Below are positions 6,811 through 56,195 of a stretch of 64,000 bases of DNA, in pieces. The translations under genes and the position numbers were made by a program. Source of the stretch: Alphaproteobacteria bacterium (GTDB lineage: Bacteria > Pseudomonadota > Alphaproteobacteria > Caulobacterales > Aquidulcibacteraceae). The stretch covers positions 1 through 64,000 of the forward strand of contig JAGWZE010000007.1 of NCBI GenBank assembly GCA_018969015.1, written 5' to 3'. Below the pieces are notes generated by a model that saw nothing but the letters and a program-made list of their open reading frames with translations, did no database searches and had not been told where the DNA came from. How positions within the stretch are numbered: position 1 is the first letter of the stretch; each line of letters begins with the position of its first letter.

Positions 6811-7728
6811 TCACACCGTATCCCAGTTGAACACCGACGCCGTCGCGCCGAGGTCGGTGTAGTTGCCTTTCATCGCCGGCAGCGCGTGCTCGAGGATGGT
6901 TTCCGGGCTCCAACCTTCCAGGCGCGCGAGGCCGCGCACGGGGCGCGGCTGGTTGAAGAGGAAGACCTCGTTGCCGCGCACGGCGAAGATCTGGCCGTTC
7001 GTCTCCTTCGCGCCGTCGGCGCACAAGGCGACGGCAAGCTGCGCCACCTGATCGGCGCGCATGGAGTTGCGCATGCGCTCGACGCGCTTGGCGCTCGCTT
7101 CGTCCTTCACCGGGATCGTCGCGATCATCCGTGTCCAGGCGAACGGCGCGATGATGTTGGAGCGCACGTTCTTGGCCGCGCCCTCCATGGCGATGATGCG
7201 CGACAGGCCCATCACGCCGAGCTTCGCCGCGGCGTAGTTCGCCTGGCCGATATTGCCGATCAGGCCGGAGGTGGAGGTGAACAGCACGTAGGAGCCGGAC
7301 TGCTGCTCCCGGAAGAGCTCGACCGTCGCGCGCGTGACGTTGAAGGCGCCGTGCAGGTGGACGTCGATGACGGCCTTCCAGTCTTCCCAGGACATCTTGT
7401 GGAACATGCCGTCGCGCAGGATGCCGGCCGGATTGATGACGGCGTGCAGGCCGCCGAACGCCTTCAGCGCCTGTTCGCGCATGCCTTCGACGGCGGCGTA
7501 GTCGGTGACGCTGTCGGAGTTGGAGATGGCCTTGCCGCCGGCGTCGCGGATTTCGCGCGCGACGGTCTCGGCCGGGCCAGCCGAACCTTCGTCGCCGCCG
7601 GAGACGCTGCCGCCGAGATCGTTGACGACGACCGCCGCCCCTTGGCGCGCCGCCAGGAGCGCGCATTCGCGACCGATGCCGTTGCCGCCGCCGGTGACCA
7701 GAACGACCTTGCCGTCCAAAACGCCCAT
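6811..7728 (-). CDS. Short-chain dehydrogenase (MFE-2 / 3-hydroxyacyl-CoA dehydrogenase-like)
   Basis: NAD(P)-dependent SDR of 305 residues. The cofactor motif GGGNGIG is at 13-19, and the catalytic set is Ser near 152, Tyr165 and Lys169 (YAAAK). The N-terminal region with VNDLGGSVSG and the long C-terminal extension resemble the (3R)-hydroxyacyl-CoA dehydrogenase domain of peroxisomal multifunctional enzyme 2, suggesting a beta-oxidation or steroid-type substrate. It stands alone; the exact substrate is unknown. Confidence 0.88.
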   Translation of the reverse strand: MGVLDGKVVLVTGGGNGIGRECALLAARQGAAVVVNDLGGSVSGGDEGSAGPAETVAREIRDAGGKAISNSDSVTDYAAVEGMREQALKAFGGLHAVINPAGILRDGMFHKMSWEDWKAVIDVHLHGAFNVTRATVELFREQQSGSYVLFTSTSGLIGNIGQANYAAAKLGVMGLSRIIAMEGAAKNVRSNIIAPFAWTRMIATIPVKDEASAKRVERMRNSMRADQVAQLAVALCADGAKETNGQIFAVRGNEVFLFNQPRPVRGLARLEGWSPETILEHALPAMKGNYTDLGATASVFNWDTV

Positions 7729-7840
7729 GTCAGTTTCCTCCCTGATATGGCGGGGAAGCTAGCGGCGGGGCGCGGGGGTGTCGAGGCGGGAGGGGCTTGG
7801 GCGGCGGTGTTGGGGCCGGCGGCGCCGGGGCGCCGCGGCG

Positions 7841-53044: not shown

Positions 53045-54877
<1,833 letters not shown>

Positions 54878-55049
54878 GAGCGTGCTTTCGACGTGGGGAG
54901 GCAGAGTGCGGGCGCGTTGTGCCTGTAGGGCGTCGCCGGAGCAAGGGCGGCGCCGACGAACGTCGCGACCTTGTGCGCTGCGTGGTCGCATGTGTGCACT
55001 GCAAAACGACAAGAAACGATCTAAGTCATTGATTTTGTTGTCTCGAAAA

Positions 55050-55087
55050 CTTCCCTACGTAAAGCTCTCGGTAGGAAGGGATTTTTT
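55050..55087. terminator. Hairpin with T-runs on both sides upstream of typA
   Basis: CTTCC(C)TAC and GTAGGAAG pair with one bulged base, followed by GGGATTTTTT on the plus strand and by TTTTC on the minus strand. Possibly a bidirectional terminator or an attenuator upstream of typA. AT-richer than the surroundings. Confidence 0.4.
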
Positions 55088-55091
55088 CGGG

Positions 55092-55119
55092 TTGATTTTT
55101 GTGCGGCGCAACGTAACTT
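55092..55119 (+). promoter_or_regulatory. Candidate promoter of the small RNA
   Basis: TTGATT, 16 bases, TAACTT on the plus strand. It predicts transcription starting near 55126, just before the first RNA hairpin. Confidence 0.5.
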
Positions 55120-55125
55120 GATCGA

Positions 55126-55213
55126 CGTGCGGCGTCCTGGACGCCGTCGCCCTTCTCGGGCGTTTCCTCCCTAGTACAAACTCGCCCCGGGCCAGCCCCG
55201 GGGCGTTTTTTTT
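55126..55213 (+). ncRNA. Candidate trans-acting small RNA with anti-Shine-Dalgarno tract
   Basis: About 88 bases with three hairpins. H1: CGGCGTC-CTG-GACGCCG (55130-55146). H2: CGCCC-TTCTC-GGGCG (55148-55162). H3: CGCCCCGGG-CCAGC-CCCGGGGCG (55183-55205) followed by TTTTTTTT, a strong intrinsic terminator. Between H2 and H3 is a 20-base unpaired linker with CCTCCC (55166-55171), complementary to ribosome sites. No open frame of note. No plus-strand gene precedes the terminator, so it needs its own transcript. Design like alphaproteobacterial sRNAs with CUCCC or CCUCC loops (alpha-r14, CcsR and GsrN types), but I cannot assign a family. Confidence 0.6.
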
Positions 55214-55268
55214 GCCCTGCGGGGGGTGTTTCAGGCGATTTTTGCCGGTGCAGGCGCCGCTGCGGCCG

Positions 55269-56195
55269 TCAGACGAGACGATCCGCCCACGGCGGGGCCG
55301 CAGCCAGGGCCTCGGCCAGGCGCGTCATATCCGCCCGCACCTTGGAAAATGCGCCCGAACGGGTAAGCGAGCGCTCCTGGAGATACAACCCCCGGTCGAG
55401 CTCGATCTGCAGCGCGTGCACGCCGGCGCGGGGGCGGCCATAGGTCTGGGTGGTGTGCCCGCCCGCGAACGGGGCGTTGCGGATCACCTTGTACCCCATG
55501 CCGCGCAAGGTCTGTTCGACGAAGGCCGTCAGTTCCGGATGGCAGGAGGCGCCGAACCGGTCCCCCAGCACGATGTCGGGCGCCTGCGGGCCGCGGGCGC
55601 AGCTCGGCATCGAGTGGCAGTCGATCAGGATCGCGCAGCCGAACAGCGCCTGCGTTTCGGCGACGAGCGTCTCCAGCATCGCGTGATAGGGCCGGTGGAC
55701 CGTGGCCAGGCGGCGCTCGGCCTCGGCGATCGGCAGGCGGCGGCGGTAGATCTCGTCCCCGTCGCCGGCGATGCGGGGGATCGCGCCCAGGCCGGCCTGG
55801 ACGCGCGGGGAGAGCGGGAAGCCGCCGCGCGGCGGACCGTCATGGAACATGTCCGGATCGAGTTCGGTCGGGTCCCGGTTCAGGTCGACGAACGCCCGCG
55901 CGACGGTCGCGCACAGGACCGGCGCCCCATGGGCGGCGGCGCCGGCGAACAATTCATCGACGAACGCATCCTCAGATCGGCGCAGGCTCTGCAGCGTCAG
56001 CCGCGTCTGGGCCAGCAGCGTTTCCGGGTAGCGGCGCCCGCTGTGCGGGGAGGCGAACACCACCGGGGCCGTGCGGCGCAACGGTTCGATCACCATGAAC
56101 GGCGCATCGCCCGGCCGTTCGGCCGGCCCAGGGCGGGCGGCGGCGCTGGCGGCGACGCTGTGGGGATCGCGCGGGTGCTCCATCCTGGGCAGCAT
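55269..56195 (-). CDS. N-formylglutamate amidohydrolase family protein
   Basis: 308 residues. FASPHSGRRYPETLL, FVDLNRDPTELDPDMF, CAILIDCHSMPS and HALQIELDRGLYL are the family metal-site motifs. It hydrolyses N-formylglutamate in histidine breakdown, though no other hut gene is here. Its place beside cpdR is conserved in several alphaproteobacteria. ATG 56195 or 56183. Confidence 0.9.
   Translation of the reverse strand: MLPRMEHPRDPHSVAASAAARPGPAERPGDAPFMVIEPLRRTAPVVFASPHSGRRYPETLLAQTRLTLQSLRRSEDAFVDELFAGAAAHGAPVLCATVARAFVDLNRDPTELDPDMFHDGPPRGGFPLSPRVQAGLGAIPRIAGDGDEIYRRRLPIAEAERRLATVHRPYHAMLETLVAETQALFGCAILIDCHSMPSCARGPQAPDIVLGDRFGASCHPELTAFVEQTLRGMGYKVIRNAPFAGGHTTQTYGRPRAGVHALQIELDRGLYLQERSLTRSGAFSKVRADMTRLAEALAAAPPWADRLV

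Follow-up and report, generated by a model that had tools for sequence, protein, structure and literature searches.

The stretch at positions 55092-55213 of the window (the whole DNA analysed, 64,000 nucleotides) is very probably a real small regulatory RNA (sRNA) gene, and its product is a member of the known alphaR8 family, which is widespread in alphaproteobacteria; membership of this family, and not novelty, is what we claim. A search of the whole window against all 4227 Rfam families at their curated cut-offs returned RF00519 as the sole family above its cut-off, through a match at 55142-55220 (58.3 bits against a cut-off of 41; E 2e-9 on the window) that spans the full model (positions 1-77 of 77); two further matches up to E 1 in 54900-55400 both fell below their own cut-offs. 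RF00519 (suhB) carries the Rfam description "Makes More Granules Regulator RNA (mmgR)", and an S. meliloti survey lists its RF00519 match as SmelC689 (PMC2873474). As described for alphaR8, these RNAs bear a single-stranded 10-nt UUUCCUCCCU after a weak hairpin and an intrinsic terminator, with a copy beside an FGase (N-formylglutamate amidohydrolase family) gene in most species (PMC12559287). Alongside the gathering score, the stretch carries a 10-mer identical to the published one (PMC12559287) after a weak hairpin, a Rho-independent terminator and an FGase neighbour, the last being usual for members and not required. SisA of C. crescentus was placed in RF00519 because the alphaR8 name is common to both; the Caulobacter control genome also matches RF00519. 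Studied members of the MmgR/SisA family bind mRNAs and have been tied to carbon-storage control (PMC12559287, PMC8401924).

A sequence-only reading of this DNA had proposed an unannotated sRNA with a trans-acting make-up, comprising an anti-Shine-Dalgarno tract and a terminator of its own; the make-up stands, and by the RF00519 match the RNA is no orphan, the family having been overlooked together with the fact that the hutG-like neighbour is alphaR8's usual linkage and the PhaR motif in the promoter. That reading had likened the RNA to alpha-r14, CcsR and GsrN, which have C-rich or anti-Shine-Dalgarno pairing tracts, as here; the covariance search did lead to a known family, RF00519, the window's only one above cut-off, and did not show the RNA to belong to those types. 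We consider it highly probable that the stretch is the FGase-linked main alphaR8 copy, starting at about 55126, repressed by PhaR until PHB accrues and acting through Hfq-aided blocking of ribosome sites via UUUCCUCCCU, with expression, Hfq dependence, PhaR binding and target repression carried over from homologues; established here are family membership, architecture, the conservation of the 5' hairpin (SL1) and of the operator motif, and a genome that carries phaR, phasin, phaC and hfq.

Table 1 Features of the sRNA unit, its neighbours and a candidate target in the window
Feature	Position	Strand	Basis and remarks
-35-like element TTGATT	55092-55097	+	Sequence reading
Predicted PhaR/AniA-type operator TGCGGCGCA	55102-55110		Perfect YGCRNYGCR match, between -35 and -10
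-10-like element TAACTT	55114-55119	+	3/6 against the TATAAT consensus
Predicted sRNA transcript (alphaR8/MmgR/SisA), ~88 nt	55126-55213	+	5' end inferred; Rfam match and fold
5' hairpin SL1, 8 bp, one pair G-U	55129-55147	+	Fold
Hairpin SL2, 5 bp, CGCCC-UUCUC-GGGCG	55148-55162	+	Rfam structure line and fold
alphaR8 10-mer UUUCCUCCCU, predicted anti-Shine-Dalgarno pairing site	55163-55172	+	Unpaired in minimum-energy fold, directly after SL2
Intrinsic terminator	stem 55183-55205 (9 G-C pairs), T8 55206-55213	+	Sequence, terminator scan and fold
typA/bipA, divergent upstream neighbour, 610 aa from ATG	53045-54877	-	PF21018 and PF00009
FGase gene (N-formylglutamate amidohydrolase family; hutG-like), convergent	55269-56195	-	PF05013, 256.7 bits
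Candidate target site AGGGAGGAAAC	7733-7743	-	Perfect 11-nt complement of RNA 55162-55172, at ribosome-binding position, 4 nt before ATG
Candidate target gene, SDR-family oxidoreductase	6811-7728	-	PF00106, 131 bits

The layout of the unit (Table 1) agrees with the sequence-only reading, whose promoter elements with a 16-nt spacer, three hairpins, unpaired CCTCCC and T8 terminator were all recovered in place by reading and folding, and whose two minus-strand flanking genes proved by Pfam to encode TypA and an FGase. The FGase product scores below the curated cut-off of the hutG model TIGR02017 (133.8 against 278.75). The RNA at 55126-55213 folds at -42.7 kcal/mol, compared with -30.8 (sd 2.9) in 200 dinucleotide shuffles (z -4.09), and none of the 200 is as good, which bears out the structured RNA that had been proposed; for an inverted repeat at 55040-55085, by contrast, neither strand gave a fold that surpassed its shuffles (z 0.14 and -0.93). 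A scan of 54600-55700 found no sigma-70-like site, the promoter alone being no consensus match, and the promoter call is supported by comparison with relatives: judged by eye, most of the 36 copies from the same family have a TTG shortly 5' of the operator, and the -10 region is GTAT-like in many relatives.

The spread of the family was surveyed in 61 genomes (our own, with 36 from its family and a further 24 from its order), and RF00519 exceeded its cut-off in 56 of them under filters that were stricter and able to lose weak matches. For comparison, 71 loci were taken, namely the best place in each of the 56 genomes and 15 extra copies, fewer than all family places listed; two were not located by the alignment script (L135, the best copy of G006, and L147, the third copy of G005), leaving 55 main and 14 other copies. 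L135 is clipped by a contig end and contains TTTCCTCCCC. An FGase is encoded at 27 of the 30 above-cut-off loci with flanks of ~1.5 kb (exceptions L005, L018 and L019), and among the 55 main copies a convergent FGase gene lies within 900 nt in at least 43 and TypA is nearby in at least 21, both counts being lower bounds as 25 of these loci had 0.8-kb flanks only. Conversely, 64 of 80 named FGase loci (18, 15, 17 and 14 per 20), some of them cut by contig ends, hold RF00519 at the Rfam cut-off. The sequence GUUUCCUCCC is invariant across the 55 aligned main copies, mostly by construction, since the script centred copies on CCTCC and favoured a preceding TTT; the loci had been selected by their Rfam matches, which are independent of this centring.

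Additional copies were also seen. At four loci (L057, L058, L062 and L067), three of whose records are titled Hyphomicrobiaceae or Hyphomicrobiales, two tandem RF00519 copies adjoin the FGase gene. Our own genome has a second alphaR8-like copy (G000:C39:9141-9227, minus strand; locus L002, 1501-1587) that scores 34.3 bits, below the cut-off of 41. This copy has TTTCCTCCCCCGAGG, in which CCUC is able to pair with GAGG, and a small hairpin is accordingly predicted to sequester the core; the same variant occurs in the second copy of G015 and in G006. The PhaR motif was not found in the promoter stretch of L002.

The RF00519 model starts at 55142, inside SL1, which lies mostly outside it, and SL1 was therefore assessed from the relatives' sequences. 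A stem of at least 5 bp occupies the SL1 position in all 36 same-family copies (own included) and in 15 of 19 other same-order copies; 26 and 9 of these stems, respectively, are better than their dinucleotide shuffles at a threshold of p 0.05. Covariation was scored in 16 copies (14 distinct) chosen for the loop core T(T/C)TCGCGA, with our own sequence excluded. Of the 8 pairs, 4 have changed on both sides, a count that 15 of 500 shuffles also attain; such changes fill 8 cells (0 of 500), and the covariation score of 0.321 was reached by none of 500 shuffles, which ignore kinship, and compares with 0.055 to 0.104 for slid structures. SL1 thus very probably belongs to the RNA and, conserved and covarying as it is, makes a transcript start near 55126 likely, in agreement with the SisA contact at residues 33-45. 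This suggests that, for this order at least, one more hairpin might be added to the 5' side of the Rfam model.

Two other accounts of the hairpins bear on this view. The RNA could start at or after 55142, with SL1 acting as a DNA site (a 17-bp inverted repeat) and the family assignment still right: the RF00519 model begins at 55142, CGGCGTCCTGGACGCCG is a perfect dyad, and a protein-bound DNA dyad could change symmetrically too, though less freely. Yet the changes in the SL1 stem are compensatory and its loop hardly varies (in 16 rows picked for that loop), and the -10 position sets the start 5' of SL1. In addition, SisA's mapped CrfA contact is at residues 33-45, as expected if ~35 nt precede the core (PMC12559287), and the MmgR deletion 33-51 is said to remove its internal conserved core (PMC8401924), so that we judge a later start decidedly improbable. 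Exceedingly unlikely, in turn, is a mere bidirectional terminator between neighbouring genes with no sRNA at all, to which the terminator stem just 3' of the minus-strand FGase gene and a scan listing terminator-like sequence on both strands would lend themselves. Against it, the minus-strand T tract is interrupted (AGTTTGTACT), typA is transcribed away from the hairpins, SL1, SL2, the 10-mer and the promoter stand 5' of the terminator and are conserved or covarying, and homologues are expressed in two species (PMC12559287; PMC8401924). The narrower proposal, entertained in the sequence-only reading, that a minus-strand terminator of the hutG-like gene is the whole story was rejected on the broken T tract, the SL1 covariation and the conserved plus-strand promoter, and is very unlikely given the Rfam match as well. 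An sRNA gene with SL1 at its 5' end is the reading that we retain.

The spacer of the promoter holds the putative PhaR operator. YGCRNYGCR is the core motif for PhaR as established in S. meliloti (PMC12542648), where PhaR is described as the mmgR repressor and the motif is present in the mmgR promoter (PMC12542648; PMC8401924), itself among the gel-shift fragments (PMC12542648); according to a review, the mmgR promoter has a conserved dyad between its -35 and -10 boxes (PMC8401924). Among the 55 main-copy promoters, the strict motif is present in 38, compared with 0.5 expected from mononucleotide shuffles and with 1 and 6 of 55 flanking controls. A loose form is present in 54 of 55 (4.2 expected), yet also in 16 and 19 of 55 flanking controls, and because it is so frequent there, the strict form alone is taken as specific. 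The 14 other copies have the strict motif in 1 case and the loose one in 11. Of the 36 copies from the same family, 34, our own included, have a site with N3 or N4 spacing that starts 59 to 68 nt 5' of the CCTCC core; no operator was found at the usual place in the other two (G003 and G016). Of 30 phasin genes, 29 also have the strict motif on their 5' side, compared with 4.2 expected and with 8 in the downstream control.

The two genera g6 and g14 depart from this pattern at both kinds of promoter. All 13 of their main sRNA promoters (8 in g6 and 5 in g14; for example, L006, L013 and L123) lack a strict N3 site and have YGCR-NN-YGCR instead. Their phasin loci were covered in 11 of the 13 genomes (L240-L250; G013 and G027 gave no phasin match), and N4 sites are present at 11 of 11 and N3 sites at 3 of 11, compared with N3 at 34 of 35 (29/30 and 5/5) and N4-like sites at 27 of 35 (23 and 4) phasin loci elsewhere. 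N4 is therefore common at phasin genes generally, and g6 and g14 stand out by having lost N3 at these genes (8 of 11). The joint change at sRNA and phasin promoters supports one common regulator, presumably PhaR.

Our own genome encodes PhaR (TIGR01848, 162 bits; cut-off 109.45), one phasin, one Hfq and two PHB-synthase-like proteins, one above and one below cut-off; by sequence, the stretch thus pairs a motif between -35 and -10 with a PhaR gene in the genome, as a PhaR/AniA regulon member would. A PhaR gene was found in 55 of the 61 genomes, the six without a match being G024, G025, G039, G051, G055 and G059, and the sRNA was not found in G039, G043, G051, G055 and G059. Four of the five sRNA-less genomes therefore also lack a PhaR match (Fisher p 1.4e-4, kinship ignored), a joint absence that may represent only two events because three of the four belong to one genus. 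Counter-cases run both ways: G024 and G025 have the sRNA without a PhaR match, and G043 has PhaR without an sRNA match.

The TGC-N3-GCA dyad might instead be bound by a regulator other than PhaR, such as an NtrC-linked factor, in keeping with the positive dependence of mmgR on NtrC and its nitrogen control in S. meliloti (PMC8401924) and with such a dyad accompanying the sRNA in the two genomes that have no PhaR match. TGCGGCGCA, however, matches the PhaR core motif perfectly, the same motif recurs at 29 of the 30 phasin promoters, and both N4-spacing genera also have N4 at their phasin promoters, mostly without N3. We therefore regard another regulator as improbable and continue with PhaR.

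Under PhaR control, the circuit would run as follows. Without PHB, PhaR would occupy the spacer operator and block the promoter; as PHB builds up, PhaR would be titrated via the granules and the sRNA would be made; with the aid of Hfq, the sRNA would then cover purine-rich ribosome-binding sites through UUUCCUCCCU and block translation, its targets perhaps being genes of acyl-CoA and other carbon metabolism. Such pairing has been established for SisA, which represses mRNAs via the same 10-mer, as compensatory mutations showed for CCNA_03574 (PMC12559287), and PhaR control is described for MmgR, which limits PHB accumulation in S. meliloti (PMC8401924); for the present RNA we infer both from sequence.

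Candidate targets were sought by complementarity to the core. AGGGAGGAAAC occurs twice in the genome, once in the sRNA gene itself and once before the candidate SDR gene (Table 1), whose product is above the cut-off of no NCBIfam model among the 25 matches listed. The predicted duplex at this site (-17.5 kcal/mol) ranks third and fourth, for two in-frame starts, among 879 candidate start regions in the window, and the two stronger duplexes precede ORFs that are putative genes only. The shorter GGGAGGAAA has 22 places in our genome, 2 of them sRNA genes, against 4 for a backward-pattern control; 6 of the 20 non-sRNA places stand 2-7 nt before an ORF of at least 237 aa, the SDR gene being one of these and the ORF of L204 resembling, by eye, an acyl-CoA ligase. 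AGGGAGGAAACH has 19 places in 16 of 37 genomes, one being the sRNA gene of G047; 7 stand 2-15 nt before an ORF of at least 98 aa, two more (L220 and L221), separated from an ATG by 1 nt, fell outside the range that the script covered, and no common target gene emerged from the 19. As GGGAGGAAA resembles ordinary Shine-Dalgarno sites, all of these targets, the SDR gene included, are weak leads only. A direct phasin target was set aside, phasin leaders carrying, by eye, ordinary GGAG-like sites.

The core also has complements away from start sites. At L208 (G000:C58:52833-52841, around 1501-1509), a stop codon is closely followed by a 7-bp hairpin whose loop holds a perfect 9-nt core complement; its 17-mer is exact in our own genome only, among the 61, and we do not claim it as a CrfA-like sponge. 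No conserved sponge of this kind was found among exact core complements in our genome and its relatives. At L201 (G000:C48:36603-36611), GGGAGGAAA, which is perfectly complementary to a portion of the sRNA core, lies in what we take to be the conserved GAGGAAAGTCCGGGCTCC region of RNase P RNA.

Both described relatives resemble the present RNA in part. It shares with SisA of C. crescentus the same 10-mer after a hairpin, an intrinsic terminator and an FGase neighbour (PMC12559287), as well as further family copies elsewhere in the genome, here one and below the Rfam cut-off. It differs in that SisA's control is described as the CrfA sponge and not PhaR, and in having a PhaR motif, whereas no motif common to the sisA-D promoters is reported for C. 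crescentus (PMC12559287). With MmgR of S. meliloti it shares the family model, the 10-mer, a PhaR-matching dyad between -35 and -10 and the PHB genes, MmgR being 77 nt long compared with the ~88 nt predicted here (PMC8401924, PMC12542648). A bolder picture, which we put forward tentatively and hold to be rather doubtful as a whole, is that in this lineage the PHB sensor PhaR has alphaR8 as a conserved output, in a three-hairpin form truncated by the Rfam model, and that the RNA would directly block the ribosome sites of the SDR gene in the window and of other carbon genes, with operator spacing in two genera having co-changed at the promoters of the sRNA and of phasins.

An apparent orphan sRNA is thereby assigned to a family of wide conservation, and a circuit from PHB through PhaR and alphaR8 to translation can be put to the test. 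The data suggest that PhaR control of alphaR8, as described for S. meliloti, extends to a further lineage of alphaproteobacteria; if true, many members of the class would adjust how carbon genes are translated to their PHB status.
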